A DNA stretch of 28,874 bases from a virus. Below the pieces are notes generated by a model. That model was not told the origin of the DNA, searched no databases, and saw only the letters and a program-made list of their open reading frames with translations. The position numbers and the translations under genes were made by a program. Shown piece after piece: positions 6,706 to 27,447 of this stretch. The stretch is from positions 1-28,874 of IMG/VR virus record IMGVR_UViG_3300010370_006585. One strand, 5' to 3'. Position 1 is the first letter of the stretch. Every line of letters starts with the position of its first letter.

Positions 6706-6749
6706 GTTTCTGGTTTGGTCTCTGATTGGATTGTTTTGGGAGAGTGACG

Positions 6750-7979
6750 ATGTCGAAAAAAGGGCCGAACCGCGCGGTGACTCAGCAGATTCTGCGAGAC
6801 CACAAGAAGCACGGTGATGCGGTGTTCGAGGAGCTGGATCAGATTCTGGAGGCTGGCGAGATCCAGGCGACGGAACTGGACCTCGTGTCGTGCCTTGAGC
6901 ATGACTTCGGTGTGGGTTACCGGCGCGACGTGATGACGATGGGTGACGACGCGATGGAAGCGATCATCACCAGCGGTACCTTCAACAAAATGGTGCCGAA
7001 GATCATCCGGACGGCGTTGGCGGAGCAGCCGAAGGAACAGTATTTCCTGCTGAACCGAGTGACGATCGAGACCCGTGGCGAGTGCGAGGACGGGTACGAG
7101 GATCACGGAGTGTTCTCGGATCCCCAGGCTGACGAGATCTGCGAACTGCAGAAGCCTCCGATGTTCGGCGTTGCGACCGACTTCATGACGCATCCGAAGG
7201 GCAAGCAGTACGGATTGGGGTTTGCGTTCACTCGTGAGGCGGTGTGCCGCGATCCGAACAACTTCATCCAGCAGCAGATCCCGAAGATTGGTGATGCTCA
7301 CAACGAGAAGTTCGAGAACCAGTTGCTCGACCTTTTTGTTGGCTACACCAACACGTACAACCGGAGCGGGACGGATTACGACACCTACTATGCTGCCGAC
7401 GGCACGTCGACTCCGTTCGGCGACGGCAGTGGCGGCCCGTGGGTGAATGCGCAGGCGAACGACCTGACCTGTCCTGCGGATTTTCAGTCAGCGCGTAACC
7501 TGTTCTACGACTTCCGCGACATGGTTCACGGTCGTCCGATCCCGGTTCCGATGACCGGGTTGAGCGTGGTGACGAGCCCGCAGAAGGCCGATGCTGTCCG
7601 TCCGAAGTTGCTGGCGACTGCGATTGAAGACGACGTGACGTGCAACGGTGGCGACACCGTGAAATACGTCATGACGGCAGCCGTTGCGAACCAGATGACC
7701 TTTGACCTGCTGTCCTATCAGCGACTGGTCGACCGGATTGCACTGCGGTGGGGCGTGACGGCCGATGAAGCGCGGAACTGGTGGTGGTTGGGGAACATCC
7801 CCGAGTTCATGTCGTGGGTGTACAACATCCGGCCGACAGTGACTCGGTGCCCGCAGGATGCGGAGTCGTGTCAGCGACGGATTGTGGCTCAATACACCAG
7901 CCTGTCGAAGGGATACGGGTACATTCGCAGCCCGTATCGCGGGATGTGGTTCACACCGGTGGAAGAGAGCGGTAGCTGA
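6750..7979 (+). CDS. Major capsid protein
   Basis: A 409-aa protein from ATG 6750, 7 nt after GGGAG; an in-frame TTG at 6726 is upstream of the SD and is not favoured. The size, position after scaffold and decoration genes, and a terminator immediately downstream fit the main HK97-fold shell protein. The N-terminal 60 residues are helical and charged. A strand-rich middle contains QYFLLNRVTIETRGE, and a long region with WWWLGNIPEF follows. Eight Cys residues are spread over the chain, unusual for a major capsid protein. No specific family name can be given from sequence alone. Confidence 0.8.
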   Translation: MSKKGPNRAVTQQILRDHKKHGDAVFEELDQILEAGEIQATELDLVSCLEHDFGVGYRRDVMTMGDDAMEAIITSGTFNKMVPKIIRTALAEQPKEQYFLLNRVTIETRGECEDGYEDHGVFSDPQADEICELQKPPMFGVATDFMTHPKGKQYGLGFAFTREAVCRDPNNFIQQQIPKIGDAHNEKFENQLLDLFVGYTNTYNRSGTDYDTYYAADGTSTPFGDGSGGPWVNAQANDLTCPADFQSARNLFYDFRDMVHGRPIPVPMTGLSVVTSPQKADAVRPKLLATAIEDDVTCNGGDTVKYVMTAAVANQMTFDLLSYQRLVDRIALRWGVTADEARNWWWLGNIPEFMSWVYNIRPTVTRCPQDAESCQRRIVAQYTSLSKGYGYIRSPYRGMWFTPVEESGS

Positions 7980-10496: not shown

Positions 10497-11021
10497 ATGC
10501 CGTTTTCTGCTGGTGAGTTGTGCTGCTCGAATACTGCGTGCGTGTTGCTGGACGTGGCTACGGGGACCACGACAACATGGGAACGCATTCCGCATGTGAC
10601 ACAGATTTCATTCAATCGCACGGCAAACACGCCGAAACTTGTGACCAGTTCGACGAAGGGTGAGGAAACCTCCCTTTGCGGGACGATCACGCAGAATGGG
10701 AATCTGGCGATCGCATGCCATGGTGGTACGGCCCCAGGATATCTGGAGGTGAACGATATTTATCACATTCGATGGGCCGCAGATTGCGCCGACATCTGGA
10801 ACGAGGAGGATTGCCCTTCGCAAGGGAGCGCGACTTCTGCGTTTGCGGCGACTTACTTTGAAGCGTACATTCGAATCACATCATTCCCGGTTGACATGAA
10901 CATCTCCGGAAATGCTGCTTTGGTTTACAACTACGGATTTGACATTGTCTCTTGGGTAAATCGTGGCGTTGCTCAGTCCGCTGGTGTGGAGTCTGGTGTA
11001 ACGGCCGGTTTTGCCTGCTGA
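10497..11021 (+). CDS. Major tail tube protein candidate
   Basis: A 174-aa protein, ATG 8 nt after AGGAG. Strand-rich sequence with Thr, Ser and Val and a long C-terminal segment (AYIRITSFPVDMNISGNAALVYNYGFDIVS) typical of tail tube beta-sandwiches. It directly precedes the tail assembly chaperones, as lambda V precedes G. Eight Cys are present (CC near residue 9, the last residue is Cys), suggesting possible disulfides between stacked rings. It is smaller than lambda V (246 aa) because no extra Ig-like domain is seen. Confidence 0.65.
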   Translation: MPFSAGELCCSNTACVLLDVATGTTTTWERIPHVTQISFNRTANTPKLVTSSTKGEETSLCGTITQNGNLAIACHGGTAPGYLEVNDIYHIRWAADCADIWNEEDCPSQGSATSAFAATYFEAYIRITSFPVDMNISGNAALVYNYGFDIVSWVNRGVAQSAGVESGVTAGFAC

Positions 11022-11545: not shown

Positions 11546-11707
11546 ATGGAAATCCTGCCTGAGGATCCGGGTTTTCTGGTTCCTCGGTGCAGGTATCGAC
11601 ATTTGGCTGAGGCTCTGTGTCGTGAGCTGCACATTTCGCTAGACTCTGCGCTGCAGTACACGCCATTTGAGGCGTATCAGGCACTGGGAGCAGAGATCTA
11701 TGTCTGA
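11546..11707 (+). CDS. Tail assembly chaperone T-like extension
   Basis: A 53-aa frame from ATG 11546 to 11707, overlapping the tape-measure start by 8 nt. It could be translated alone (AAAGGAG at 11534-11540 precedes it), but more likely it forms the C-terminal part of the -1 frameshift fusion reading from 11492. The sequence is helical with PFEAYQALGAEIYV at the end. In lambda-like systems the T domain binds the tape measure. It is too short to identify by itself; context makes the call. Confidence 0.65.
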   Translation: MEILPEDPGFLVPRCRYRHLAEALCRELHISLDSALQYTPFEAYQALGAEIYV

Positions 11708-14700
11708 AGGTCAGCGGTTACTCGACGTTTTCGTGAGCGTGCGCCCGGATCCAGAGATGCTGGAGGCTGTGAAGGCTGCGCATGAGACCCTGATCAGTGA
11801 CCTGCAGAAACGCCTAGCAGAGGTCAGCCAGGCGATTAGTGCGACGACTCGGACGCATGTGACCGAGGTTTCCAATGCAGTCCAGACGCTGACAAGTCGC
11901 CTGAATGCTCTGCAGCAGGCGAGCCAAGCCTTGCAATCGCAGAACAGACTCACCGGTGGTGGCGGTGCCAGCGGCGGTGGTGGTGCGGTTACTTCTGGGT
12001 CGTCAGCACCTCCGCCACAGTCTCCTCCGCCCAAAACTCAGGCGGAACTTGAGCTTGATCGGATCAGCGAGAGAAGAGCAGGGATAGAAGAGAACATCAG
12101 GCTGCTGCGTGAGGCGAACTCGCTGGAAATTTCGAGGCTGCGTGCTCTTGGCCAAAAGGAATTTGCATCTCCGTATGAACAACAGAATCGCGAGTTAAGA
12201 GCAATTGTGTTGCAAATGCGAGCGATGGATGCAGAAGAAGTCAACCTGCTGACCAATGATGCAAGACGTAAAGAGTATTTGGATTTCTACACTCAAATCG
12301 GGCGCCGTGTAGATAATGCAAGAGAATCTGTCGAACGATTTGCAGACAGAGCACGGCAGGTGTCTGCATTTGCTGTTCCTCAGCCCGGCGTACTAAGTGG
12401 TTCAAAATTTCAGGAGGACATCGCGAAGCTATTCAGGGCTCAGAATATCAGGGCTGGAATAGCGCTCGGTGCCCCACAGGAACGGCCAACTGGTCTACCT
12501 TCATCGGGTGCATTGGCCGATGACTTGCGTGCGCAGGAACAGGTCGTCAGAGAGAATGCTGCGAACGTCAAGAGGCTGCGGTCTGAGTACGATGGCACAA
12601 AATACTCTGTTGATAATTTGAGAGATGCAATTGACGAACTGGCGAACAGCCAGAAGCGACTCAGTGTTCTGCAACTGGCCGCCAAGGATCAGGGGAATCT
12701 GTATCGTGGCATCGCCGAAGGGGCAAGAGACGCCTCGATAGCTGCAGGACGTTTGTCCATTTCGCTGAAAGATATCGGTGACGTGGGCCTGCGTGATGAC
12801 ATCGTGCAGTTGCGGCGTGACTTCCAAGACTTCGAGCGAGAACTCACACGCCTGCAGAGCAAGGGTGAATTCAATTTCGTTGTGCAGTCGTCTGGTCTGG
12901 ATGATCTGTTGCAAAGACTTCAGAGCGTGACTGCACGATCCGGAACAGCGACTACAAGCAAAGAGAAAATAGTTGAAACGAACGAGAACCTGCGAGCTTC
13001 AATTCGCTTAGACGAAATCAAAGTCCAAGAACTGAACGAGCAGTACATCAGCAGGACGACAGCCAAAGAGCGAGCGGCTATTGTGTCGCAGCGAGCAGAG
13101 CTGGCGCGTAATCAGGCGCTGATTCAAGAGGCAAATAGAGACCGTGACAACTCTTTAATAAAAGAACAGGAATTGAACGCCCTTCTGATACAGCGAAAGG
13201 CTCTGCTTGGCACACTGAGTGCGGACTTGCAAGATTTGGCATCGAGGACAAATGCGTCGTTTAACAGACTGCAGAACACGGCATTTCAGGTTGGCCAGGC
13301 ATTTGAAGACTTTGCCGTCGGCTTCCAGCTAAACGGATTTGCTGGCGGCATCCGTGGTGCTGCCAACAACATTTCGTTCATCGCACAAGACATCGCCAGC
13401 ATTTACGTCAGCAGCGACAAAATCAGCCAGAAATGGAAACTGATTGCTGGTGTCGGCACTGGCATCGGTGCTGCGCTGGCTGTGACGATCCTTCCTCCAA
13501 CGATTGCGTGGCTGGAAAGCCTGAATGACATCTCGATCGAGATCGAAGACATCTCTCGAAAGATGCAGGACATGACTGATGAGTCACGCCGTGTCGCTGA
13601 GGCAAATCAGAAGACCAGAGAGACGCTTCGTGGCATTGGCGATCAGGATTCTTTTGAAGGTGTTCTGCAGCAACTCAGAGACCTTCGAACTGAAACGGAA
13701 GACACGGCCAAGCAGGTTGAAGATCAACTGCAAAGCATTTTTTCTTCTCAACTGGTGAACGGACTTCAGCAATCGTTCTCTGCTATTTCACGCGGAATCA
13801 AACAGCAACTACTGCAACTCGCAGACGATGCAAGAAGTCTGCAGGCTGATATTTTGCGCAGAAATCAGACGAGATTGTCTGGGGAGCAGGACAGGCCTCT
13901 GTCGTTTGATGAGGCGTTGAAGGCAGTCACAGGAGAGTCTGATAGGCAGGCACAACAGCTTATCGACACCTATCAGAAACTTCAGCGCGAACTGGACTCC
14001 GTTAGAGCGAAATCTGAAAGAGGAATTTTTGAGAGCGATCAACTGATCAATGTTCGAAATCTCTTCGAAAGTGTGACGAAACAGGTCGAAGATTTCAGCG
14101 AAACAGCGGACGTCGGGACCAAGAATTTTGCTGAGGATTTGAAGGGCAACATCACCCCGCTGCAGAAGGCCTTCGAGGATTTGATCAAACCTCTGAAGGA
14201 GGTCGAGGAGGTCCTGCAGCGGAGGTTCAGTGCGGCCGTCGATGCTGCACAGCGGAAGACAGAACAACTGGCGGAGCGTCAGCAGCTTCTGCGGCTGCAA
14301 CTGCAGGGCCAGGCGAGCGAGCAGTCGACAGCGTTGCTGGACATCCGGGAGTTCAGCGCACAGTATCAGGACATGATCGACAAGACGCTGGAGTTTTACG
14401 CCAAGTCGCAGGGAGTGACGTCGGCTCAGGTCGAGGGCCTGAGAGAGGTGCTGCGCGGCCAGGCGAACATGGAGATCGGCAACAAGAATCTGACTGAACA
14501 GAAGTCAGTGCTGGATCGCATTCAGTCCGTCGAGGAGCGGATTGCTGGGTTGCGGGAACAATCTGCTGCTGCAAGATCGCAGATGGTGTCACCGGAGGAT
14601 TTCGCTCAGCAACTGCAGCAGAATGTTCTGTCCATTGAGCCGGTTGACAAAAACACGGATGCTCTGCAGAAGGCGACCAACGAGCTGATCGAGTTACGTC

Positions 14701-15116
14701 TGGAACTGGTCAAGCTGCAGCAGTTGGAGGAGATCCGGGTTCAGCGTGGCGAGATTGCGGAGTTCAACAGGAACGCGGCGAACCTCGGCCCACAGATCCC
14801 GAGAATTCCATCGAGCGTGGACCGGGCATTGCTGGAGGCTGAGCGTGCGTTACCATTCCTGCGGGCCCCGACGGTGTCTGACCTGATGCGGATGACTCCG
14901 ATCGTGGCTCCGATGGGAGGTATCGGAGGAGCGGCAGGGATGCTGGATGTGATGAAGGGAATACCCGGTCAGGGCTCAATTTCCGATTTGGTGAGTGTTG
15001 GCGTAGAATCCGGCATTCGCAAGGCGTTGGAAGGTATCGCACCTGCTCTGTTCAATCGGATTGAAGGGGTGAGTGAGGCCGTGAAAACCAAAGACATGTC
15101 GCCGAGGGCACAATGA
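11700..15116 (+). CDS. Tape measure protein
   Basis: An 1138-aa protein from ATG 11700 (GGGAG about 9 nt upstream), the longest gene here. It sets tail length and is ejected ahead of the DNA. Residues 1-80 are helical; a Gly/Ser/Pro linker covers about 86-113; then long coiled coils follow with dense Gln, Glu, Arg and Leu. A hydrophobic stretch near residues 578-603 (IAGVGTGIGAALAVTILPP) could insert in the host membrane. The C-terminus is Gly/Met-rich and again hydrophobic. There is no Cys in the whole protein. At the usual ~0.15 nm per residue the tail would be roughly 170 nm, an estimate only. Confidence 0.9.
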   Translation: MSEGQRLLDVFVSVRPDPEMLEAVKAAHETLISDLQKRLAEVSQAISATTRTHVTEVSNAVQTLTSRLNALQQASQALQSQNRLTGGGGASGGGGAVTSGSSAPPPQSPPPKTQAELELDRISERRAGIEENIRLLREANSLEISRLRALGQKEFASPYEQQNRELRAIVLQMRAMDAEEVNLLTNDARRKEYLDFYTQIGRRVDNARESVERFADRARQVSAFAVPQPGVLSGSKFQEDIAKLFRAQNIRAGIALGAPQERPTGLPSSGALADDLRAQEQVVRENAANVKRLRSEYDGTKYSVDNLRDAIDELANSQKRLSVLQLAAKDQGNLYRGIAEGARDASIAAGRLSISLKDIGDVGLRDDIVQLRRDFQDFERELTRLQSKGEFNFVVQSSGLDDLLQRLQSVTARSGTATTSKEKIVETNENLRASIRLDEIKVQELNEQYISRTTAKERAAIVSQRAELARNQALIQEANRDRDNSLIKEQELNALLIQRKALLGTLSADLQDLASRTNASFNRLQNTAFQVGQAFEDFAVGFQLNGFAGGIRGAANNISFIAQDIASIYVSSDKISQKWKLIAGVGTGIGAALAVTILPPTIAWLESLNDISIEIEDISRKMQDMTDESRRVAEANQKTRETLRGIGDQDSFEGVLQQLRDLRTETEDTAKQVEDQLQSIFSSQLVNGLQQSFSAISRGIKQQLLQLADDARSLQADILRRNQTRLSGEQDRPLSFDEALKAVTGESDRQAQQLIDTYQKLQRELDSVRAKSERGIFESDQLINVRNLFESVTKQVEDFSETADVGTKNFAEDLKGNITPLQKAFEDLIKPLKEVEEVLQRRFSAAVDAAQRKTEQLAERQQLLRLQLQGQASEQSTALLDIREFSAQYQDMIDKTLEFYAKSQGVTSAQVEGLREVLRGQANMEIGNKNLTEQKSVLDRIQSVEERIAGLREQSAAARSQMVSPEDFAQQLQQNVLSIEPVDKNTDALQKATNELIELRLELVKLQQLEEIRVQRGEIAEFNRNAANLGPQIPRIPSSVDRALLEAERALPFLRAPTVSDLMRMTPIVAPMGGIGGAAGMLDVMKGIPGQGSISDLVSVGVESGIRKALEGIAPALFNRIEGVSEAVKTKDMSPRAQ

Positions 15117-16324
15117 GTATGTATGTTGTGGACCCTGATGAATTCCCGATCAAAGCGGTCCATGAATCCGGGATCGTCCAGTATAAGGCTGGGCAGGCGA
15201 CATCGACACGGTCTTTTTCTGTCCGGTGTCATCAGGCTCAGGAGTTGGGGCTGAGGTTTCTCGGCAAGTTTTACAAGCTGGGCGAGTTTGAGACACCCAA
15301 TCTTCCTGCGGAGTTTCCTACAGAAATAGATGAAACTGTTGGGTATGTGCCACAGCAAATGCAGTTAGTGGCGAGCGGGTTTGAAATCATTCCGCTGTCG
15401 ACATGCTGTTTCAACAACTACAAGGTCGATGGCGAAGGCACGGGAGAGGATCCGTTTGTCCTGAAAGATCAGTGCATTGAAAATCTGATCTCCCCCACGA
15501 CTCTCGAAAGGTACTATGTTCGCGAAGTTGACCCGGAGGAGGGCGACCCAGGCATTGACACTTCCAAAGAGTGCATGTGTCGAGTCAACATCGCCTACAC
15601 CGAAAAGCCGTGGGATTGCACGTATCTTGATTTGGGGGATAACGATCCAACTTCAGGTGATCCGGGATTTCTGATTCTTGAGCATACGGCTCTTGCGACT
15701 GAACGAAGCAGCGGTTACGAAATGTACACGCTGCCAAACAGGAACCTTGTTTGGGCGGATGTTGCAGAAGGCCCAGACAAGATGCTCAAGGGTGACACCT
15801 ATGCGACAGTCATGGTGCCAACTGCGGACATTACGGTAACATGGTTCAATGTGCCGGTGAAACATCTGTGCGCCATTGAAACCCATCTTGCGAAGTTCCG
15901 AGGCACAGTGAACAAAGAGCCGTTTGATCTGCTGACACGGTGCATCTGTGCGGATCCGTATTCCTGCGAGGAAGGGACTGGAGGCAGCACACCGCCGGCC
16001 GGAGTTGCCTCAGAAGACTGCAGCTATGAGCCAGAGACTATGATGTTTCTGGATTGGCAGGAAGAGCGATCTCAGAGGACCAGAGCCTTCGCTCCGATGG
16101 ATACCACGACGCTGACGCTGCGATTCAAGCAGAAGCGAATCGCTGTTGATACCAATGAGGACGGGGAAGTTGACCTGATTTGCGGCTGGAATCATCTGCT
16201 CTGCGACCGCGAAACGAACACAAACTCCGGCAGTCCATGGCAGCGAGTCAAGGTGAAGCTGCCGACAGAAAAAGATCTGTTCCTGCAGACGGACTGGAAG
16301 TATTTGCTGAGACCAACTGTCTGA
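15113..16324 (+). CDS. Tail-tip structural protein (distal tail candidate)
   Basis: A 403-aa protein with an ATGA overlap with the tape measure gene. It is the first gene after the tape measure, where distal-tail or hub proteins are encoded. Strand-rich, with aromatic residues, 14 Cys (for example CMC, CIC, CC) and an acidic middle region. The second half contains a run of strands ending in WKYLLRPTV. No known domain is recognised. The Cys content suggests disulfide or metal stabilisation. The call to tail tip rests on location and composition. Confidence 0.55.
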   Translation: MSMYVVDPDEFPIKAVHESGIVQYKAGQATSTRSFSVRCHQAQELGLRFLGKFYKLGEFETPNLPAEFPTEIDETVGYVPQQMQLVASGFEIIPLSTCCFNNYKVDGEGTGEDPFVLKDQCIENLISPTTLERYYVREVDPEEGDPGIDTSKECMCRVNIAYTEKPWDCTYLDLGDNDPTSGDPGFLILEHTALATERSSGYEMYTLPNRNLVWADVAEGPDKMLKGDTYATVMVPTADITVTWFNVPVKHLCAIETHLAKFRGTVNKEPFDLLTRCICADPYSCEEGTGGSTPPAGVASEDCSYEPETMMFLDWQEERSQRTRAFAPMDTTTLTLRFKQKRIAVDTNEDGEVDLICGWNHLLCDRETNTNSGSPWQRVKVKLPTEKDLFLQTDWKYLLRPTV

Positions 16325-16333
16325 GGATTTCCC

Positions 16334-17488
16334 GTGAGCCTACAACCGAGACCATTCAGACCCGGGCAGGTGATTAGCGCTGACAGGCTGAATCATCTAC
16401 GCCGCGAAAGCATACGTGACCAGCAGTTCCGAGTGAGCGGCCCGGGCGTCAGCGTGGTCGATGATTACCTGTCTGGCGGCCAGTCTTCGCATCACGCGAA
16501 GCCCGGCACATTGCTTTGCAGAGCCACTGAAGACTTCGAGGCTGGAAAATACACGGACGCATATTCATGGCCGGATCCTGTGCCGTCTGGGTTGTGTCGT
16601 CTGGTCCGAATGCGACCAGACAATGGCCAGTATGAAGTCGAAAGTGAGGATACGCCTGCATTCCGAGTTTGGGATCCGATGGCTCTGATCTCCGGGACAA
16701 CCAGCAAACAGGAAGGCGACAGTTTCTATGCGGCACAAAACAAGGATACCGGGCGGGTTGAGATTATTGGATCTGCAGCATCTGTGGAGGTTCGCCACGG
16801 GCTGGTTTCCGAGTGCCTCGGGATGGGGTGGTATGTCGTTGAGCTGATGGACTGTCTTCAGTATGAGCCACCGGACTGCGAGAAGTACGACCCGTGGAGC
16901 GGATCGTCTTCTCCGTCATCATCAAAGTCGTCTTCAGGATCCACTTCTCAATCATCGTCAGACAGTTGCGGCGCTCCTGAGCCCTGCGACGACTGTGACT
17001 TTCGTGCGCCGTGTGGCTGTGAGTCTGACAGCAGTGACGTGAACCTGAGTGAGCAGTGCGGAGATGGTGATATCATTGTTCCGCTGCGGCCCAGAAGGGA
17101 CAGCAAATGCTACCCACTGGTGGGGAACGGGACGTTTGTGTACGCACTGGACAAGCGGGCTGTGCCGTTGCGAATCGAGGGCATGGTGACAATTGTCTGG
17201 CTGGGTGACAGGTGTCTTGGAAAAACTGGGTGGGAGTCGAACTGTGCCGGCTGCCCGGACACTGGCGATGATTCTGGCTATGTTCTTGGATCTGCGGGAT
17301 CTGAATGCACCGATGATGGTGCAAAGCTGTACGTGGTTGTGAACGGTGAATACCAGATGGTCACGATCCCGATTAAAGAGTATGAGTGTTGTGATGATGG
17401 CGTCCAGCAGGTTTCCTGTGTGACGTATATCGTCGAGGGTTCAGTCTGCAGGGCTCCTGAAACGCCATGCGGCGAAGGGACGACGTGA
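16334..17488 (+). CDS. Cys-rich tail protein with Ser-rich linker
   Basis: A 384-aa protein from GTG 16334, 7 nt after GAGG. The N-terminus, PFRPGQVISADRLNHLRRES, is the kind of start found in tail-fibre-like proteins that place a PGxxxxAxxLN helix on the tail. Residues about 189-211 are almost only Ser with Gly, Pro and Thr, forming a flexible linker. After it the protein is very rich in Cys (about 21 in total, with CDDC, CGC, CAGC and CC). The Ser-rich linker is a natural site for O-glycosylation, and glycosyltransferases lie downstream. The function is inferred as a virion adhesion or tail-tip component. Confidence 0.6.
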   Translation: MSLQPRPFRPGQVISADRLNHLRRESIRDQQFRVSGPGVSVVDDYLSGGQSSHHAKPGTLLCRATEDFEAGKYTDAYSWPDPVPSGLCRLVRMRPDNGQYEVESEDTPAFRVWDPMALISGTTSKQEGDSFYAAQNKDTGRVEIIGSAASVEVRHGLVSECLGMGWYVVELMDCLQYEPPDCEKYDPWSGSSSPSSSKSSSGSTSQSSSDSCGAPEPCDDCDFRAPCGCESDSSDVNLSEQCGDGDIIVPLRPRRDSKCYPLVGNGTFVYALDKRAVPLRIEGMVTIVWLGDRCLGKTGWESNCAGCPDTGDDSGYVLGSAGSECTDDGAKLYVVVNGEYQMVTIPIKEYECCDDGVQQVSCVTYIVEGSVCRAPETPCGEGTT

Positions 17489-19005
17489 TGTCCGAACGAG
17501 CAACAAGTCGAGGGCTTCTGGAATGCTGCTGCAGTCGCCCATGCGAAGGGCTATGCTGTTTTTGGGTGAAGCGGTTTGCCCGTGCTGTTGGTCCGATCGA
17601 ACCAGAAATTACGGGGCCGGATGCAGAAAACTGCAGTTGGAGTTTTGGGCCATGGATAAGAAGCTATGTTCCATATAACAACGCCGGCCAAACATATTAT
17701 TTCTGGACAAATTTTTTATGGTACAACGCGATTGAACCGGCTAATGCCAACGATGACTCATACCTTGGGAGTGGGTATTATTTGACTGTTGATTTGAATT
17801 CTGCTCCCGATGTTGTTGGCACTGGAACGCCGGGGCAGGGGGCGTGGACGTGGAGTCGATGGAACTGGAGGCCGCCTGCGATACGTTTCCGTGCTGATTC
17901 CTACTCCGATGGGAATGCTGGAGGCTACGACAGCCAAATTGGCTATGGCACGTACCCCAACTGGGTTCGCCCTCAGTCAATGTACAATAACAGTCCATCT
18001 GGATGGCTTGGCTACTCTTTTGCGGATGTCGGAATCAGCAGCAAAACAGTGGGAACTGGGAACTGGCTCCACCCAATGACATTGGATTCCGTCAAAGTTC
18101 CTTACTCTGGAGTTTGCTGGACTTCAGGGTTAAACAGTAGAGAGCTTGGTTATCCACCTCCAGTCCCCGATATCGGAAGACGTATCTTTTTTGGGGTACG
18201 CGCCTACGTCAACTATGTGCGAGTTTTGATTGACGGTCAGGACCAGACCGGACGTGTATTTGTTGGCAGCATGCAGCAAGACACCTTTGTTGGAAGCTCT
18301 TGGTTACGAGGAACGCTAAGGCCACTCAACGGCTTTTTGAGTGATGAGATTTATGTTCCATCAAAAAGGCACAATGGGAAAAAAATTGAATTTGATGTTT
18401 GGATGAGGTTTGAAATGGAGTTCCAGGGGGCTCCTTTTCAGTGGAATGACACGTGGAGATATCAGCCAATCTCAATTATTAAACACGATTGCTGCGGAGT
18501 GCCGATCCACCTTTCATATGGTGATGCTTGCAAAAAAACGACGATAGACGCCAAGTACAGATTGGATTTTGTTGGCACAGCTCCTGGAGGAGCAGGTTCC
18601 TTGACTAATGAGACCACTGCCGGATGGACTCTTGGCCAGTCGACATGTGCGTTCTCGCTTGAAAAGGACGACAGGCTTGCGTCAGTTCGCATGGATTACC
18701 TACGTGAAGTTCCGATGATCAGTGTCAGAAATGATCCATCGTTGTTTGTCTCAGAGCTGGTTGGACTGTATTTCCCCGATGATGACCAAGTGCTCGACAA
18801 TTTACTTTTTGGTGATGGCAGTTACTGGGCTCCGGGTCTGTGGAATCCTTCCGGAGTGACGACTTTTCGCCTAATAGCAGCGAAATCCGTTTATTCTACC
18901 GTTGGAGAATGGCAGACAGAGTGGCTTGCACCGATTTCTCTTTGGCCACTTTCACCGGGCTCGTTGAATCATTTGCCCGAAACAATCACAGTGACAAGGA
19001 TTTGA
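17488..19005 (+). CDS. Large strand-rich tail or adhesion protein
   Basis: A 505-aa protein; ATG 17488 shares one base with the upstream stop and has GAAGGGA 8 nt before it, so it is preferred to an in-frame ATG at 17467. The N-terminus holds a Cys cluster (CCCSRPCEGLCC, residues about 13-24). The rest is rich in Trp, Tyr, Gly and Ser with strand-like alternation, as in receptor-binding or carbohydrate-binding tail proteins. Codons are less G/C-ending than in the head genes. I do not recognise a domain. Position suggests a tail-tip or adhesion role. Confidence 0.55.
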   Translation: MSERATSRGLLECCCSRPCEGLCCFWVKRFARAVGPIEPEITGPDAENCSWSFGPWIRSYVPYNNAGQTYYFWTNFLWYNAIEPANANDDSYLGSGYYLTVDLNSAPDVVGTGTPGQGAWTWSRWNWRPPAIRFRADSYSDGNAGGYDSQIGYGTYPNWVRPQSMYNNSPSGWLGYSFADVGISSKTVGTGNWLHPMTLDSVKVPYSGVCWTSGLNSRELGYPPPVPDIGRRIFFGVRAYVNYVRVLIDGQDQTGRVFVGSMQQDTFVGSSWLRGTLRPLNGFLSDEIYVPSKRHNGKKIEFDVWMRFEMEFQGAPFQWNDTWRYQPISIIKHDCCGVPIHLSYGDACKKTTIDAKYRLDFVGTAPGGAGSLTNETTAGWTLGQSTCAFSLEKDDRLASVRMDYLREVPMISVRNDPSLFVSELVGLYFPDDDQVLDNLLFGDGSYWAPGLWNPSGVTTFRLIAAKSVYSTVGEWQTEWLAPISLWPLSPGSLNHLPETITVTRI

Positions 19006-19006
19006 T

Positions 19007-19864
19007 ATGTTCGCTTCCTCCTATACCCTGGATTCTGACTGGTGGACAGCCTCTGACTGGGCTGATCCAGAGACACCGGCATTCACTATTGAGGGCTCCG
19101 GGGTAGTCGAGTACATCTGGTCGTCAGCGATCCCACTGGCATCATCGCAAGGCTTGCCACTGGCGGCCGGCGTTTACAAGTTTTCTGCGATCATGCCCGG
19201 GCAACTGTTCTGGTTGCGAGTTGTTAGTGGATCTGCAGACATCTATTACCTGCAGGATTTTGGTGTGCAATTTGATCTTTTGTCTTGTGGTGTTGCGTGG
19301 CTGGGGGATGGCGGAGCAGACACTGGATTCATTGGACCGCAGCAGTCAGTGACTATCGGCTTCAATGACGACATTCAGGCACCAGCGACAGGACCATACG
19401 AACACGCGGCGTTTCTCTGCACGAATCCAGCCGGCATTGAGGCGTCTGATGCAATCGACAACTCATGGCTGACAGTGCCGCTTCTTGCCCAGCGCCCCGG
19501 CCGTGTCCTGAGGTTTTACGGGCTGGAGTACAGCAGCAGCCAGTATTCGTCAATCACCGATCTGGCTTCACTGCAGGCTCTGACAAAGACAGTTTCATAC
19601 GCTGATTTTGAGACAGGGCCTGAAAGCATTCTCCGGATCGACGTGACATCCATTGTTGTTGAGTTGCAGTTTGTTTCTGGCTGGTCTTCCAGTAGCCCGC
19701 TGCAGTTTTACGTTGAGGACATTGGAGCGGAGGAAACTGGACTCAACGTGTTCTCCAATTTGTGGCTTAACTCAAAGTCCGGTAGAGTTGTGACTGTTGT
19801 TGACGGGGCTGGTAGCAGTTCCAGCGGAACAGGATCTGCGGGAACATCAACGGCTGGACCATAA
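19007..19864 (+). CDS. Hypothetical virion surface protein with Ser/Gly tail
   Basis: A 285-aa protein, ATG one base after the previous stop, with AAGGA 6 nt upstream. Alternating strands throughout (jelly-roll-like appearance), many Trp, Phe and Ser, only two Cys. The last 18 residues are Ser/Gly/Thr-rich and likely disordered. It precedes the glycosyltransferase genes. A beta-sandwich tail or carbohydrate-binding protein is plausible; no family is recognised. Confidence 0.5.
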   Translation: MFASSYTLDSDWWTASDWADPETPAFTIEGSGVVEYIWSSAIPLASSQGLPLAAGVYKFSAIMPGQLFWLRVVSGSADIYYLQDFGVQFDLLSCGVAWLGDGGADTGFIGPQQSVTIGFNDDIQAPATGPYEHAAFLCTNPAGIEASDAIDNSWLTVPLLAQRPGRVLRFYGLEYSSSQYSSITDLASLQALTKTVSYADFETGPESILRIDVTSIVVELQFVSGWSSSSPLQFYVEDIGAEETGLNVFSNLWLNSKSGRVVTVVDGAGSSSSGTGSAGTSTAGP

Positions 19865-19878
19865 CTGGAGCTTCAAAA

Positions 19879-20658
19879 GTGAAATGGGCTTGTGGAATTA
19901 TTGCTGCCCCCAGGCCGTCGCCAGACTCCCTGTCTAAGTGTCTCGCAAGCGTTCATTCCAATGGGATTGGAGAGTGCCTGGTATTCGCAGAGCCAGAGAC
20001 CGAAGTTTCCTGTGTCCCAAAGTCTCAGTTGATAATCAGGCCAAACAGGATTGCGGATCCCGTTGGGAATCTGCAGTGCAGTCCAGAGGGTCGTTTGGGC
20101 AACTTCCAGAACTGGCTGCAGTGCGCTGCGGACCTGCTGACTCAGGATGCGGATGCGTTTCTGATTGTCGAAGATGATGCTGTGTTTTGTCCGGGTGCTG
20201 TGAGTTTCGTCGATAGCCTTCTGTGGCCGGATTCTCGGTGTGGTGCAATCAACTTTTATGCTGCAAACGTGAGCGTGTTGAGGCAAAAGGCTGTTCCAGC
20301 GTTTGTTCCGTGGCCTCGCTCTGGACTGATGGGTTCGCTCGCTGTCGTTTTCCGCCGTGAGTGTCTGCAGGAGCTTGTGTCAGACACGGACATTTTCGAG
20401 TACCAGAAAGACCTGATACTTTCCGGAAGGCTGAAACCATGGGATCGCCGGGCCATTGATACGTGGGTCGGCGTTCGTATGCGAGCGATGAGATGGCTGT
20501 GCTGGACGTTTACGCGAAGTCTGGTCAATCACCACGTGCCGCCAAAGATGAAAGAGAACAGCAGTCTTGGGCACGGGCCGAGTATTGGTAAGCGAGCCAC
20601 GTTGAGATACGTTGGCGACAACCCGCAGGATCTCAGAAAATTCTTCAGAATGAAATAA
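19879..20658 (+). CDS. Glycosyltransferase (GT-A type)
   Basis: A 259-aa protein from GTG 19879 with GGAG 8 nt upstream. Predicted to transfer a sugar from a nucleotide donor. FLIVEDDAVF, with Glu98-Asp99-Asp100 at the end of a hydrophobic strand, is the metal/donor-binding motif of GT-A enzymes, and the preceding LGNFQNWLQCA helix and the following Gly/Ala strand (CGAINFYAANV) fit that fold. C-terminal DTWVGVRMR resembles acceptor-side motifs. No transmembrane segment, so cytoplasmic. Donor and acceptor are unknown. First of a cluster of such genes. Confidence 0.72.
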   Translation: MKWACGIIAAPRPSPDSLSKCLASVHSNGIGECLVFAEPETEVSCVPKSQLIIRPNRIADPVGNLQCSPEGRLGNFQNWLQCAADLLTQDADAFLIVEDDAVFCPGAVSFVDSLLWPDSRCGAINFYAANVSVLRQKAVPAFVPWPRSGLMGSLAVVFRRECLQELVSDTDIFEYQKDLILSGRLKPWDRRAIDTWVGVRMRAMRWLCWTFTRSLVNHHVPPKMKENSSLGHGPSIGKRATLRYVGDNPQDLRKFFRMK

Positions 20659-20659
20659 C

Positions 20660-21364
20660 GTGAGATACCTGACAAGCCTCAATCCGAAAGACAGAATCAC
20701 GCACCAGCAAACATGCGTGCAGACTTGGTTTGACAGTGGAGCGACTGATGTTTGCGCAGTTCAGACTGCGTCAGACGATATGGATTTGCTTCGCAGTTGT
20801 TTCCCGTCGGTTCGCTTTGAGGTAACCGACAAGACCGGAGTGCTGTTCGACCGCCCATACCTGCCAACAATTCGTGGCATCGTTGATTTTGCGGATTTCA
20901 GTGCTGGTGGCGTGTTGCTGATAAACTCAGACATCGAGGTCAGGCTCTCGAAAGATCTGATCCAAAAAGAGTTTGTCGCGCCGTCTGATGTTGTCAGATG
21001 CTTCATCCGGTGGGACTACAACCAAAGGAAAGCCAGTCGGCCGATCAAGTGGGGCATTGATGCGTTCATGCTGACAGAAAGCATTGCCGGTGTGTTGCCT
21101 GAGGACGGGATGACGATTGGTTGCCCGGTGTGGGACTGGTGGCTCCCATGGCTCTCTTGCCGGCTGCTCGACGCGAGGGTCTCAGCATGGACATCGAAGG
21201 GATTCATGCACGCAATACATCCTCAGAACTGGCCAATGGAACAAATGCAGGTCGGGTTTACTGTGATGCAGGATAAGTACAACATTCAACAACGGGAGCT
21301 TGCAAGGTGGATTCTGCAGCAGACGAAGAGAGCAGCGTATTCGAGCATCGCCCTGCGACCTTAG
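20660..21364 (+). CDS. Glycosyltransferase-like protein
   Basis: A 234-aa protein beginning GTG one base after the previous stop, without a clear SD, so probably made by translational coupling. GGVLLINSDIEV with Asp91-Ile-Glu93 takes the place of the DxD motif, and WGIDAFML plus GCPVWDWWLPWL provide a Trp/Asp-rich acceptor region like that of small glycosyltransferases. The end overlaps the next gene by 58 nt. The family is less certain than for the following gene; the donor is unknown. Confidence 0.6.
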   Translation: MRYLTSLNPKDRITHQQTCVQTWFDSGATDVCAVQTASDDMDLLRSCFPSVRFEVTDKTGVLFDRPYLPTIRGIVDFADFSAGGVLLINSDIEVRLSKDLIQKEFVAPSDVVRCFIRWDYNQRKASRPIKWGIDAFMLTESIAGVLPEDGMTIGCPVWDWWLPWLSCRLLDARVSAWTSKGFMHAIHPQNWPMEQMQVGFTVMQDKYNIQQRELARWILQQTKRAAYSSIALRP

Positions 21365-22107
21365 ACGACTTGCCGGTTTCGATCTTTATCAAAACCTGCT
21401 CGAAGGACTACGCATGGCTGCGATACTGCCTTCTCAGTGTCAGAAAGTTCTGCTCTGGCTTTCAGTCTGTTGTCATTGTGTGTGATGACGTGGACAGGAA
21501 TATCAGCGGGTGGATTGGCGACATGATGGCCGGCTGTGCGTGTTCGGTGCAGTACGCGGAGACTCGTAGCAGTTGCACTGGGTATTTACAGCAGCAAGCT
21601 GTGAAACTACGAGCACTGGAATACTGCCCAACTGAAACTCAGGCAGTGCTGTTTCTGGATTCAGACACAATCTTTACCCGCCCGGTTACTCCGCACTGTT
21701 TTTTGGCGGCCGGAGCCCCGATACTCGCAAAGGCCAGTTACGAATATCTTTCGCAAACCGAAACGGGAAAACCTGCTGTTGCATGGAAGGCTATTACAGA
21801 GGCTGCGGTTGGGCGACCTGTCAGTTTTGAGTACATGCGGCAAATGCCGATAGTGATTCATCGGCAAACACTGCTTGAGTGCCAATCGCAGTACCCGCAT
21901 TGGTATGAGGCAATAATGTCCGGTCGTGTGACTGAGTTCTCGGAGTTCAATGCAATGGGCAGCGTTGCGGAGCATACGCATCCGTGGCTCTATAAAATCC
22001 GAGATGTTGGCACCGAATGCAGCGGTGACGTGTACAGCATTCAGTATTGGTCATGGGGGGGGATCACGCCAGAAATAAGGCGGTCCATCGAGGAGGTTCT
22101 GAGATGA
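21307..22107 (+). CDS. Glycosyltransferase with DSD motif
   Basis: A 266-aa protein, GTG with GGGAG 8 nt upstream. After a short leader, VSIFIKTCSKDYAWLRYCLLSVRKF starts the nucleotide-sugar fold; GYLQQQAVKLRAL precedes VLFLDSDTIFTRPV, with Asp118-Ser-Asp120 as the DxD motif. The pattern (GYxxQQxxKL ... DSDTxFxRP) fits DUF6492-like, GT-A family enzymes. The end shares an ATGA overlap with the methyltransferase, so the two are coupled. Cytoplasmic; the acceptor is unknown. Confidence 0.75.
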   Translation: MDSAADEESSVFEHRPATLDDLPVSIFIKTCSKDYAWLRYCLLSVRKFCSGFQSVVIVCDDVDRNISGWIGDMMAGCACSVQYAETRSSCTGYLQQQAVKLRALEYCPTETQAVLFLDSDTIFTRPVTPHCFLAAGAPILAKASYEYLSQTETGKPAVAWKAITEAAVGRPVSFEYMRQMPIVIHRQTLLECQSQYPHWYEAIMSGRVTEFSEFNAMGSVAEHTHPWLYKIRDVGTECSGDVYSIQYWSWGGITPEIRRSIEEVLR

Positions 22108-22784
22108 TCATCACAGAGTTTGACGTGGCGATATGCGATTCTGACACGCACATTTCAAGATGGGTTCTGGAGAACAGATCTCTCCGGATTGCCACATGGC
22201 TCTGCAGTTTCGCTAAGCCGTTTCTCCGAACGGGATCTGTCGTTGTTGATGCTGGGGCGAACATCGGCGACCACACTGTGGAATACGCAATGATGGTCGG
22301 GGAGTCCGGGACGGTTGTTGCCTTTGAGCCGAACTCGGAGCCGGCAGACTGCCTAGCCTACAACACAAAGTCATTTCCTCAGGTGCAGATTTTTCGCAAT
22401 GGATTATCTGACGTTCCACGTACCGCGAAAATGTTCGCAGAAAACAATGTGGGTGCGTCTTACGTGAGCGATTCTGGCTCTGTGCCAATAGAGCTTGTAC
22501 GACTTGATGACGTATGGAACTTTGATCGTCTCGATTTCATCAAGATGGATATCGAGGGTTACGAAACAAAAGCCATCACTGGAGGCATTGAGACTATCAG
22601 ACTTTTCCGTCCAGTGATGCTGCTTGAGGTGAATGTTGGAGCATTGCAACGTGCTGGTTCTTCCGAAGGCGAGCTTCTGAGCCTTCTCAGAAGCCTGAAT
22701 TATCGTGTCGAAGTGATAGGGCGAAAGGGAATCCAGTACGACATTTTGTGCGTTTCAGGTGACGGTCATGTTTGTGCCCGATAA
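22104..22784 (+). CDS. FkbM family SAM-dependent methyltransferase
   Basis: A 226-aa protein from ATG 22104, in an ATGA overlap with the previous gene and 8 nt after GGAGG; an in-frame upstream GTG at 22047 is not favoured. Motif I, VVDAGANIGDHT (SAM-binding loop, 48-58), then VVAFEPN, and RLDDVWNF followed by FIKMDIEGYE are signatures of the FkbM family, which O-methylates sugars or hydroxyl groups of glycans and natural products. Within a glycosyltransferase cluster it most likely methylates the sugar chain. The end overlaps the next start by 17 nt. Confidence 0.88.
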   Translation: MIITEFDVAICDSDTHISRWVLENRSLRIATWLCSFAKPFLRTGSVVVDAGANIGDHTVEYAMMVGESGTVVAFEPNSEPADCLAYNTKSFPQVQIFRNGLSDVPRTAKMFAENNVGASYVSDSGSVPIELVRLDDVWNFDRLDFIKMDIEGYETKAITGGIETIRLFRPVMLLEVNVGALQRAGSSEGELLSLLRSLNYRVEVIGRKGIQYDILCVSGDGHVCAR

Positions 22785-23559
22785 CACGGTGATGATCTGT
22801 GTGGATTTCGCCGACATCCTGGCGCAGACGTTGCCGAGGAACCGGCACCACTTCTCACGTGCCGTCGTGGTCACGCATCCGGACGACCTTGCGACGATCG
22901 TGGTGTGTCAGCGGAACAGCGTCGAGTGTTTGCTGACTGAGGTGTTTTATGAGCGGGGCGCGGAGTTCAACAAGTGGGCAGCTCTGGAGATGGGGCTGGA
23001 CTATCTCGGGCGGAATGGCTGGACGCTGATCATGGACTGCGACATCGTGTTGCCGGACCGGATCCCGGAAGTGTTTGCACCGCAGGCGGGGTGTCTGTAC
23101 ACGCCGAGAAGGAGAGATCTCAGGGCGTGGCAAAACGGGATTTTGCCGGATCACCTGTGGAAACGATATCGGCATGTGAACGCGAGGGAGGAGTTCGCCG
23201 GGTATTTTCAGTTGTTCCATGCGGACGATCCGGTTCTTAAGTCGAGGCCGTGGTTTGGTCGTGACTGGCGATGGGCTGGGACGGCCGATGCCCTCTTTCA
23301 GCGGCGGTGGCCGGCCAACAAACAGATCCGGCCGCCGTTCGAGGTTCTGCATCTGGGAATCCCGTATGCGAACTGGGCTGGGCGAGTGCAACCGTATGGG
23401 GACGGGCGGATCCCGGAGCGGGCCGAAGAGCGGAAGCAGAAGTACGACACATTCTTGAGGCAGCGAACACAGATTGCCGGGCATGATGACCGGTATCAGG
23501 GAGAGAAGATTTGGACTGGGCTTGCCGAAGATGCCTGCAGTGTGCGCCGGATTGATTGA
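22768..23559 (+). CDS. Glycosyltransferase with DCD motif
   Basis: A 263-aa protein; ATG 22768 with AGGTGA about 7 nt upstream is preferred to an in-frame GTG at 22759. EFNKWAALEMGLDYL leads to WTLIMDCDIVLPD, with Asp90-Cys-Asp92 as the DxD motif, then a Trp/Arg-rich part (FGRDWRWAGTADALFQRRW) and FEVLHLGIPYANWAGR. The layout resembles phage and cellular GT-A enzymes that act on a sugar chain. Third codon positions are strongly G/C, unlike the three preceding genes, which suggests a different origin. Acceptor unknown. Confidence 0.72.
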   Translation: MFVPDNTVMICVDFADILAQTLPRNRHHFSRAVVVTHPDDLATIVVCQRNSVECLLTEVFYERGAEFNKWAALEMGLDYLGRNGWTLIMDCDIVLPDRIPEVFAPQAGCLYTPRRRDLRAWQNGILPDHLWKRYRHVNAREEFAGYFQLFHADDPVLKSRPWFGRDWRWAGTADALFQRRWPANKQIRPPFEVLHLGIPYANWAGRVQPYGDGRIPERAEERKQKYDTFLRQRTQIAGHDDRYQGEKIWTGLAEDACSVRRID

Positions 23560-24258
23560 ATGAGACTGCTGATCGACGTGCAGAGTGTGTACTGGACTGA
23601 GGAGTGCAGTCGGTACCGTCTGGCGATGTCTGAGGCGACGTTGGTTGAGAGCCTCAAACATCTGGACATGACCGGGATCGAGGCATGCTGCGGGCTGTGG
23701 CAGTGCCCGATGGATCCGTGGTGGAAGCGTCGGCGCGGGATGCTGCAGATTCCCGGGTGGCAGGTCAACCGGTACAACGGGTGCAGCAAACGGCCGATAG
23801 GTCACCAGTGTGTGCTGTACGTGACCGATGACGTGGTGCTGCATCCTGACAGCCTGCAGGTCTGTCGTGAGATCTGGGAGCGACAGAGGCGGCGGGATGC
23901 GAACGGGTCAATTCTGTGGCATTTCCGCCATGGTCTGGAGATTGGAGCGGACGTGCAGAGGGTGTGTCTGAAGGATGCTCCCGTGCGGTTCGACTGCAAC
24001 GTGGCGGCCGGACCGGTGGCGTCGCAGGTGGATTTGCGGTGCGATCCGTTGTGGGCTGTGGCGCGGCATGGAATGCGAGAGCATGAGGTTGAGTCGTTCG
24101 AGGGGCCCGGGGTTTTGTGGAAATCGTGTGCTGTGAATATGATCAGGAGATACTCGAAGACGCGGATGATTACGGGAACGTGGAGTGGTGCGAGGGCGTT
24201 CTGGCACAAATCCAAATCCTGCTTCCGTCGTGCGGGGTACAGGAACTGTCGGCGATGA
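23560..24258 (+). CDS. Possible glycosyltransferase-like protein
   Basis: A 232-aa protein starting ATG directly after the previous stop. It has VLYVTDDVVLHPDSLQVC, with Thr89-Asp90-Asp91 in the position of a DxD motif, and WHFRHGLEIG, but the usual N-terminal sugar-nucleotide fold is not evident. The C-terminal 45 residues are Arg/Lys-rich; the -1 frame in the same stretch (24117-24254) is open too and reads acidic, so the C-terminus may be a true overlap or an indel. A glycan-related role is inferred mainly from the neighbours. Confidence 0.5.
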   Translation: MRLLIDVQSVYWTEECSRYRLAMSEATLVESLKHLDMTGIEACCGLWQCPMDPWWKRRRGMLQIPGWQVNRYNGCSKRPIGHQCVLYVTDDVVLHPDSLQVCREIWERQRRRDANGSILWHFRHGLEIGADVQRVCLKDAPVRFDCNVAAGPVASQVDLRCDPLWAVARHGMREHEVESFEGPGVLWKSCAVNMIRRYSKTRMITGTWSGARAFWHKSKSCFRRAGYRNCRR

Positions 24259-25900: not shown

Positions 25901-26575
25901 ATGTTCATGTCATTACTGTTGTTGTTTGCGCTACTGCAGGACGGCGGTAGTGGCTTCGAGTTTCCGATGGGGCAGGTGATGCAGGAGGCTGCGCCTGCCC
26001 CTCGGCCGATTGATACGCTGTTTCTGGATGAGTTCTATCTGATCCAGAGCGATGTGCCGTTGCTGATTCTGTCCAGCCCTGTCGGGGTTGTGGATGTGAC
26101 GGCATCGAAGAAGGGAACGATCGTCAACTCGAAGTTCGCCGGCGGATCCGGAAAGAACGAGGTTCGGACGGTTGAGCGGGAGTGGGGATATCTGGTCAAT
26201 GGGATGGCCGGCGGTGCGGTCGAGCTGATCGTGATCCCGGCCGGGACGACTGACCTGAGTGCGATGCGGCGTGCTTTGCTGCAGGTGCAGGCTCGGAAGG
26301 GCCAAACGATCAACCCGGATCCGCAGGATGAAGTCGATGTGGCGTTCCTGCAGTACGAGCGGGAATGGAGGCAGATTCAGGAGCGGCTGATCGAGAAGCT
26401 CGACAACGGCGAGATCAGCAGTCAGGAAGATGCGGCGAAATGGTTTGGTGCTGAGCATGTGCAGGCGAGGATGCGGGCGTTCGAGCCATTGCTGCAGAAG
26501 GAACAGCAGGCCTTCGGCCAGGCTTGGACGGCTGCAGGTCATGCGGAGTACATCCGGAGGTATGTCAGGCCATGA
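25901..26575 (+). CDS. Hypothetical protein with possible export signal
   Basis: A 224-aa protein, ATG 8 nt after AAGGGAG. The N-terminus MFMSLLLLFALLQDGGSG has a short hydrophobic core like a weak signal peptide but no basic n-region. The middle is strand-rich (FYLIQSDVPLLILSSPVGVVDV) and the last 80 residues are long charged helices. It overlaps the papain-like peptidase gene by 4 nt, so the two may work together, for example as a periplasmic or virion partner. No known family is recognised. Confidence 0.6.
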   Translation: MFMSLLLLFALLQDGGSGFEFPMGQVMQEAAPAPRPIDTLFLDEFYLIQSDVPLLILSSPVGVVDVTASKKGTIVNSKFAGGSGKNEVRTVEREWGYLVNGMAGGAVELIVIPAGTTDLSAMRRALLQVQARKGQTINPDPQDEVDVAFLQYEREWRQIQERLIEKLDNGEISSQEDAAKWFGAEHVQARMRAFEPLLQKEQQAFGQAWTAAGHAEYIRRYVRP

Positions 26576-27447
26576 CTGAGAATATCAATGGACTGGTCGT
26601 GCCTCAGGAGCACGAGATCAAATGGTTGACCGGGGTTCGCACTGTCAGGTCGTGGGCGAAGTCTGACTTCCCAAACTGGGATCAGGTCCTGATGGATCCG
26701 AAACTCAGTCCCGTCGGTGTGATGGAGATTGAGAATCAGGAGCGGTCCGACTGCAACGGAAACACCTGTGCGAACAATCTCGAATGGCAGGATTATGTCC
26801 TGTCTGGCCGGACGAAGATGCAGAAGGCATCTGAGATCGCAGCGTACACGCTGTGTGAGTTTCTGATGGACCCGTCAGGCCGTGGAGTGGGTCTGGACCG
26901 TGGTACGAGCATCCACAGCGCGACGCGGCTTCTGATTGGCGGTGTGCCGCAGTTCGGGCTGGAGCCGGGGGTTCCGTATGAGGCTCAGTGGCCATATTCA
27001 CGGTATTGCCGTTCGCTGCGCGAGCTGAGATCCTTCGCCCCGGGTAAGCCGGTCATGCCGTCTACGGTGGCTCAGGTGGACGACATGCCACCATGGGACG
27101 ATCTGTTGCCGAGTCTGGCTGCAGGCTGTGTGTGCCAGATTGGCACGAAGTGGCCGCCGAGGTTCAAGACGCCGGGCGGTCAGTTTGGCAGGTTCCGTCT
27201 GATGGATGACGCTCCGACGGGTGCCGGCGGGCATGCGACTGCGATCCTATGGGGTGTCAAGATCGCCGGAAGCTGGTACCTGATCGTGTGGAACAGTCAC
27301 GGGTACGGTGCCTACCTGATGTCTCGACGGTGTTATGAGTCTCTGCAGCGGTCTCAGTTTGCTCCGTTCGGGGCGTATCTTCTGAGCCCGAAGGATCCGG
27401 TGTCTGTTTACAACCGAGTTTTGAGTGGTGGAGGGTACTATGACTGA
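26572..27447 (+). CDS. Papain-like (C1) cysteine peptidase
   Basis: A 291-aa protein from ATG 26572 in an ATGA overlap; a longer in-frame start at 26524 lies inside the previous gene. NQERSDCNGNTC gives the oxyanion Gln56 and nucleophile Cys61 in the usual QxxxxC spacing (Cys66 is an alternative), GAGGHATAILWG gives catalytic His221, and VWNSHG gives Asn241, as in the NSWG motif of papain. The order Cys-His-Asn and the spacing fit a C1A-like peptidase. There is no signal peptide. It could cleave virion or host proteins or act in lysis; phage-encoded C1 peptidases are uncommon. Confidence 0.82.
   Translation: MTENINGLVVPQEHEIKWLTGVRTVRSWAKSDFPNWDQVLMDPKLSPVGVMEIENQERSDCNGNTCANNLEWQDYVLSGRTKMQKASEIAAYTLCEFLMDPSGRGVGLDRGTSIHSATRLLIGGVPQFGLEPGVPYEAQWPYSRYCRSLRELRSFAPGKPVMPSTVAQVDDMPPWDDLLPSLAAGCVCQIGTKWPPRFKTPGGQFGRFRLMDDAPTGAGGHATAILWGVKIAGSWYLIVWNSHGYGAYLMSRRCYESLQRSQFAPFGAYLLSPKDPVSVYNRVLSGGGYYD

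Follow-up and report, generated by a model that had tools for sequence, protein, structure and literature searches.

Serine-rich-repeat glycoproteins (SRRPs) of bacteria carry a signal peptide and an LPxTG-type cell-wall anchor. Alternating serine is the pattern described for them, with mostly Ala, Val or Thr between the serines, repeats that vary by strain, and clustered glycosyltransferase genes of variable number (PMC6973325). Published abstracts place SRRP glycosylation within the producing cell. Among phages, the original study of virion glycosylation in mycobacteriophages is said to be Freeman 2023. Phage-encoded glycosyltransferases of Che8, Rita, and their relatives have been proposed to modify virion proteins, and reports place the sugars on major capsid proteins and at the C-termini of capsid and tail-tube subunits (PMC11256854 and PMC12619734). 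No serine-rich glycosylated phage tail protein was found among the titles and abstract openings of a limited open-access literature.

Here we describe a phage gene (16334–17488, the target) whose product, on a reading that we hold with about even confidence, is an SRR-like, probably O-glycosylated protein of the tail tip. The original prediction for this locus had proposed a single serine-rich linker as the glycan acceptor. The analysis lends that idea more support than the prediction could offer by itself, and the pairing with glycosyltransferases recurs; the linker alone is too narrow, since relatives have further serine-rich segments in two loops and at the C-terminus, and the acceptor is probably a set of SRR-like segments rather than one linker. 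The glycosyltransferase that best tracks these segments is encoded at 19879–20658 (hereafter the second glycosyltransferase; family A4, extended as A7).

Genome, Host, and Relatives

The window, that is, the whole stretch of DNA analysed, is a 28.9-kb virus record encoding a terminase (1581–3011), a portal (3270–4967), a capsid-like protein (6726–7979), and a tape-measure-like protein (11667–15116), and is an uncultured siphophage. The record opens with a 16-base tandem repeat in about four copies (1–68), possibly an assembly end effect. A 307-aa protein (26524–27447), conserved in relatives and without a Pfam match, has by eye the features of a papain-like cysteine peptidase (DCNGNTC, GGHA, and WNSHG).

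With the window terminase as bait, eight loci were recovered; five of these records contain a homolog of the target, and the other three are fragments of 5–9 kb. A profile of the target family added six further records and one genome contig (L044). Scans with the target as a single protein gave no match in viral or genome contigs, and a tblastn search of the phage collection returned no record matching the gene. A chromosomal match at E 1.5e-4 (G387, L046) was dropped, its two printed frames of at least 180 aa being unlike the target by eye. The host is likely a planctomycete, because L044, with its target homolog, comes from a Planctomycetaceae MAG; this is a single contig, and it may be a free phage binned with that MAG.

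In three relatives (G001, G003, and G006) the flanking genes are mostly 92–100% identical to those of the window; the exceptions are 228–539 and 742–1584 (42–73%), 10497–11021 (63–67%), and the tape-measure gene (58–84%). The target, in contrast, is about 46% identical, its upstream neighbour 43–44%, and the second glycosyltransferase 47%. With mostly near-identical flanks around diverged genes, the tail-tip module has been swapped by recombination. Over 15113–22784, the module genes are about 43–47% identical to those of the three relatives or have no match there. The stretch that separates the tail gene from a conserved block holds, in different relatives, different sets of glycosyltransferases, methyltransferases, and sometimes radical SAM proteins. 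The islands 3′ of the target homolog in L027, L028, and L033–L036 vary from phage to phage; they contain several glycosyltransferases, Methyltransf_24, and radical SAM proteins, of which some have SPASM.

Organization of the Tail-Tip Module

The genes from 15113 to 24258 share one strand, often overlap, and are never more than 14 bases apart (Table 1), the target being the second gene after the tape-measure-like gene. In most relatives, a gene with a similar Cys-rich start (by eye) occupies the position of the one that follows the target. In one group (L050:1765–3369, L057:1303–3444, and L069:2984–4567), this next gene encodes proteins of 527–713 aa with 41 Cys and serine-rich runs of their own. 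For the 285-aa protein encoded after it, the four relatives with sufficiently long contigs gave no homolog at E 1e-4.

Table 1. Features of the tail-tip gene run, in window coordinates
Feature	Coordinates	Strand	Basis and remarks
Tape-measure-like protein	11667..15116	+	phrog_4200 tail length tape measure, E 0.0014; long; precedes tail-tip module
Conserved tail gene 5′ of target, 403 aa	15113..16324	+	Homologs in relatives 38–44% identical
Target: tail-tip-module protein, 384 aa, GTG start	16334..17488	+	N-terminal region, Ser-rich linker, Cys-rich C-terminal region; alignment of 10 homologs
Ser-rich segment of target, residues 189–211	16898..16966	+	16 of 23 residues Ser
Cys-rich C-terminal region of target, 16 Cys	16967..17485	+	Cys count; alignment of homologs
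Next gene, Cys-rich N-terminus (LECCC...), variable body	17467..19005	+	22-base overlap with target gene
285-aa protein, Ser/Gly/Thr C-terminal tail; alternative acceptor	19007..19864	+	Sequence
Second glycosyltransferase, predicted GT-A fold, EDD motif, A4/A7 family	19879..20658	+	AlphaFold model, phrog_854
Possible glycosyltransferase	20660..21364	+	NSDIE stretch, inspection only; no significant family match
DUF6492, glycosyltransferase-like	21307..22107	+	PF20102 E 9.5e-05, 22.1 bits (cut-off 22.9)
FkbM-type methyltransferase	22047..22784	+	PF05050 E 1.3e-20; phrog_8156 E 2.6e-23
GT2-like glycosyltransferase, A3 family, syntenic in relatives	22759..23559	+	Family-member matches; 93% identical in G006
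Conserved protein after glycosyltransferase block in relatives	23560..24258	+	Comparison with relatives

A Serine-Rich Segment in a Cysteine-Rich Protein

The target has no Pfam or PHROG match, and a PDB profile search returned one row at chance level (E 0.56). Residues 189–211 (SGSSSPSSSKSSSGSTSQSSSDS) comprise 16 Ser, 2 Gly, and one each of Pro, Thr, Lys, Gln, and Asp, much as the original prediction had described them. This serine density is beyond chance; the best of 10,000 shuffled versions of the protein had 12 Ser in 23 residues and so fell short of 16, and the next-best ORF among the 35 scanned in the window (of 161 listed) reaches 7 Ser per 23 residues. The run draws on all six Ser codons and coincides with no reported DNA tandem repeat, and Ser-x-Ser occurs seven times against 3.3 expected in shuffles (p 0.02).

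The proposed position of the run between two folded regions is plausible in that conserved blocks flank it on both sides in the alignment of homologs; the folds themselves are not backed by the AlphaFold model of the family, which is of low confidence (pLDDT 39). The expected concentration of cysteines is confirmed, with 16 of the 21 in residues 193–384 and five in residues 1–192.

Eight cysteines (161, 218, 221, 352, 353, 362, 372, and 379) are common to all ten aligned homologs. With C161 and seven second-half cysteines so constant, and the sequence of the serine run not conserved, the Cys-rich half might be the functional core, serving in receptor binding or as an adaptor and stabilised by disulfides or metal, with the serine run as incidental low-complexity sequence. 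We consider this improbable, because serine-rich segments that recur at four sites, and that reach very large sizes in G412–G415, are hard to call incidental.

Serine-Rich Segments across the Tail Family

Relatives keep serine-rich segments in the same protein despite differing sequence. The segments occupy four sites (in window numbering, about 121–126, 189–214, and 295–329, and the C-terminus), that is, a loop in each half, the linker, and the C-terminus. Ser-x-Ser alternation exceeds that of shuffles at p < 0.05 in 19 of the 24 distinct segments; significance is lacking for the segments in G004 and G009 and for the second, short ones in G412–G415. The homologs of these last four phages (L080–L083, in the order G413, G412, G414, and G415) contain a serine domain of 242–296 residues with 184–209 Ser (>70%), which uses all six Ser codons and varies in length between close phages; that of G412 (L081) consists in part of repeated DNA units, many of them 12, 15 or 18 bases long.

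At the threshold used, there is no serine segment in G008, L044, G014, L058, L059, L060, and L079. The homolog in G014 (L037) lacks the first ~140 residues and the serine run. The closest relatives, G003 and G006, have a Gly/Ser/Asp linker in place of the run and differ from each other by four residues inside a C-terminal SG repeat.

Several of these features would also be expected if the serine-rich stretch were an unmodified polyserine tether that gives the Cys-rich region mobility relative to the tail-attached part, with drifting composition and a length altered by slippage. The linker varies in sequence and length and is missing from G008 and L044, G003 and G006 make do with Gly, Ser, and Asp, and both their SG-repeat difference and the DNA repeats of L081 fit such slippage. 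Polyserine separates domains in more than one-quarter of Saccharophagus carbohydrate depolymerases (PMC2386152), and serine-rich linkers are described as flexible (PMC10598543). We regard such a tether as possible but doubtful: C-terminal segments, and those in loops flanked by conserved blocks, sit where an interdomain hinge is not needed, and a domain of 242–296 residues far exceeds what a hinge requires. The alternation above shuffles also speaks against it, though DNA repeats could yield alternation too, as does the chromosomal enrichment of serine-rich genes near the second glycosyltransferase family (see below).

Glycosyltransferases of the Gene Run

The downstream glycosyltransferases and sugar-type methyltransferase that had been invoked in favour of O-glycosylation are recovered as three glycosyltransferase-like genes (19879–20658, 21307–22107, and 22759–23559) and the FkbM-type gene (22047–22784). 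None of the genes scanned could be identified as a known Ser-initiating O-glycosyltransferase, nor does any of the ten genes in 15113–24258 have a Pfam match to a GtfA/GtfB-type family (20 of 35 window ORFs were scanned overall).

The AlphaFold model of the second glycosyltransferase (pLDDT 72.7, pTM 0.79) has a GT-A fold. Its best structure match is POMGnT1 (Z 17.6 over 216 residues, rmsd 3.6), followed by GnT-I (17.3); rows for these two enzymes span Z 16.3–17.6, with 12–16% identity in the structural alignments, and the next kind of row scores 14.2. One viral structure match to the model, at rank 3, is Gp87 of mycobacteriophage Ardmore. Six of the nine family members match the phrog_854 glucosyltransferase (best E 7.3e-06), none of the nine has a Pfam match, and the PDB set gave no sequence match up to E 10. 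We take GnT-I and POMGnT1 to belong to GT13, and the EDD motif, invariant in the family alignment, is presumably the equivalent of the GnT-I motif. The protein is thus predicted to be a glycosyltransferase closest to POMGnT1 and GnT-I. In a viral scan with the family, the 13 confirmed loci all fall in records that carry this tail family; matches in four other viral records are weak (20–30 bits).

The GT2-like gene belongs to a family (A3) with no detectable relatedness to A7. Six of ten A3 members match Glyco_tranf_2_4 (best E 6.5e-05), the window member itself having no glycosyltransferase match. An A3 gene lies downstream of the tail gene in 10 of the 12 records found without A3 as bait, counting G011, in which the first 36 residues are present at the contig end; in the two without it (G001 and G014), the contigs end 1.9 and 3.4 kb after the tail gene. 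The proposed recurrence in related genomes largely holds: related phages pair the tail family with downstream glycosyltransferases, usually together with serine-rich segments. The reservation is that the A3 gene persists without a serine run in G008 and L044, where a methyltransferase-like gene is also kept; L059 and L060, recovered via A3, likewise have no serine segment.

The A3 scan found 33 viral loci, 21 in records with the tail family and 12 in records without it. Under a criterion preferring longer overlapping ORFs, the fetched stretches of these 12 contain no serine-rich ORF; a looser ORF choice listed short ORFs with 9–11 Ser per 23 residues in L062, L068, and L074, which fell out once longer overlapping ORFs of either strand were preferred. 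Matches to the second glycosyltransferase in the 12 records are weak (29.6 bits at best).

These 12 loci, together with the glycosyltransferase genes kept in G008 and L044, would be accounted for if the glycosyltransferases and the methyltransferase had other targets, with proximity to the tail gene being modular synteny. Such targets could be the host surface, for receptor masking or superinfection exclusion, the capsid or tail tube, or the phage's DNA. PMC12619734 describes glycosyltransferases directed at phage DNA, at host serotype, or at capsid and tail tube. We think such a role elsewhere unlikely, given that viral loci of the second glycosyltransferase were confirmed in tail-family records only, apart from the four weak matches, that its four best-scoring chromosomal relatives adjoin serine-rich genes, and that a Pfam scan covering 20 of 35 window ORFs revealed no partner for DNA hypermodification.

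Association of the Second Glycosyltransferase with Serine-Rich Proteins

Among the phage records, the homolog has a serine segment in 13 of 14 with the second glycosyltransferase (window included) versus 2 of 6 resolved records without it. The serine loads are 0, 8, 10, 13, 13, 15, 16, 16, 20, 21, 194, 205, 208, and 218 with the enzyme and 0, 0, 0, 0, 9, and 17 without it (one-sided p 0.007); G001, G010, G011, G014, L050, and L079, whose contigs are too short to judge, were left out of the count. L058 has the enzyme and no segment at threshold, and G004 and G009 have segments that lack alternation and no such enzyme. On the A3 tree the association amounts to a single change, with one independent pair, so that descent alone can explain it and the p value is not taken as proof. 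For this reason a separate test was made in genomes of the class to which the L044 MAG belongs.

The family is present in 49 of 397 genomes of this planctomycete class. A serine-rich ORF occurs in 10 of 45 chromosomal stretches around the gene (35 have none), compared with 1 of 40 control stretches from the same genomes (Fisher one-sided p 0.006); the sole serine-rich control has no such glycosyltransferase. Contig size and list order decided which 45 of the 62 listed chromosomal matches were fetched, with more than one from some genomes. Once the first result was known, the sample was extended, and the extra stretches, many on short contigs, yielded less (by batch 7/20, 1/5, and then 2/20, added later; controls 1/20 and 0/20); most of the signal is thus from the first batch. 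Five further stretches (L157–L161) surround A3-type hits outside the 45, and L159 has a serine-rich ORF.

Six of the serine-rich ORFs lie within 520 bp of the glycosyltransferase on the same strand, and the four highest-scoring glycosyltransferases are among them (p 0.0007, for an adjacency criterion set after inspection of the data). On a tree of 61 glycosyltransferases, which includes 12 of the 14 phage enzymes and leaves out near-copies, the adjacency label needs six changes, four of them among chromosomal rows alone. The adjacency may nevertheless reflect only common membership in prophage tail modules.

Two of the neighbouring serine-rich proteins, L187 (728 aa) and L117 (530 aa), resemble the target in layout by eye, with a G..I..A..(F/W)N start, then a serine domain, and then a Cys-containing end. 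Homology of these two to the phage family was not accepted, the profile comparison being non-significant (E 0.061 over 21 columns) and the likeness one of inspection. Two small planctomycete proteins (L138:12935–13405 and L118:8790–9158) have CCC near the start followed by poly-Ser; L138 is a control stretch without the glycosyltransferase.

Proposed Model

The proposed model starts from the observed serine segments, their recurrence, the synteny, the predicted GT-A fold, and the enrichment of serine-rich genes. The target would be a component of the tail tip, and its serine-rich segment one of several Ser-x-Ser decoration sites found at four places in the family. After synthesis in the host cytoplasm, O-linked sugars would be put on the serines by phage glycosyltransferases of the same gene run; the second glycosyltransferase is the strongest candidate for acting on the target, as initiator or elongator, and the FkbM-type methyltransferase may cap the glycan. 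The outcome would be a glycan-coated stretch of the tail tip, short in the window and long in some relatives, that could tune exposure, stability or receptor binding. The attachment of sugar, the serines that would carry it, the enzyme responsible, and the purpose are the parts of this model that we infer.

A wider proposal, which we put forward tentatively and with somewhat less than even confidence, is that phages and prophages of Planctomycetes carry an SRR-like "phage mucin" with Ser-x-Ser stalks and loops of ~13 to ~300 residues and an adjoining, dedicated family of POMGnT1/GnT-I-like glycosyltransferases, within a fast-changing island of glycosyltransferase, methyltransferase, and radical SAM genes that diversifies the tail glycan between near-identical phages. 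Phage virion glycosylation as described in PMC11256854 and PMC12619734 concerns the capsids and tail tubes of mycobacteriophages. If true, a mucin-like tail-tip protein with its own glycosyltransferase set would be a new way for phages to vary their surface, and would offer a defined glycosyltransferase–acceptor pair testable in Escherichia coli as well as a lead on uncultured phages, probably of Planctomycetes.

Comparison with Known Systems

The target family resembles SRRPs in its alternating serine segments, here with Ala, Gly, Val, Asp, and other spacers, in its variable repeats, and in the presence of glycosyltransferase genes in the same cluster. It differs in being encoded in a phage tail module, whereas SRRPs are cell-surface adhesins, in a window segment of only 23 residues, and in its glycosyltransferase, the model of which is GT-A and closest to POMGnT1 and GnT-I, GtfA/GtfB not being recognised. 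Inspection of the target sequence found no LPxTG and no long hydrophobic N-terminus; since it lacks these export and anchor features, we call it SRR-like and do not file it as an SRRP.

Like the polyserine linkers of carbohydrate-active enzymes (PMC2386152), the serine-rich stretch stands between two regions of one protein; unlike them, it belongs to a protein that is no enzyme by any match, has additional loop and C-terminal counterparts in relatives, and has glycosyltransferase neighbours. The second glycosyltransferase shares with GnT-I and POMGnT1 a predicted GT-A fold of the same topology, although it has no PDB sequence match and the structural alignments are at 12–16% identity. As in the mycobacteriophages, glycosyltransferases are encoded by the phage itself, judging here from family matches and predicted fold; the candidate acceptor in the window, in contrast, is a serine-rich protein of the tail-tip module.
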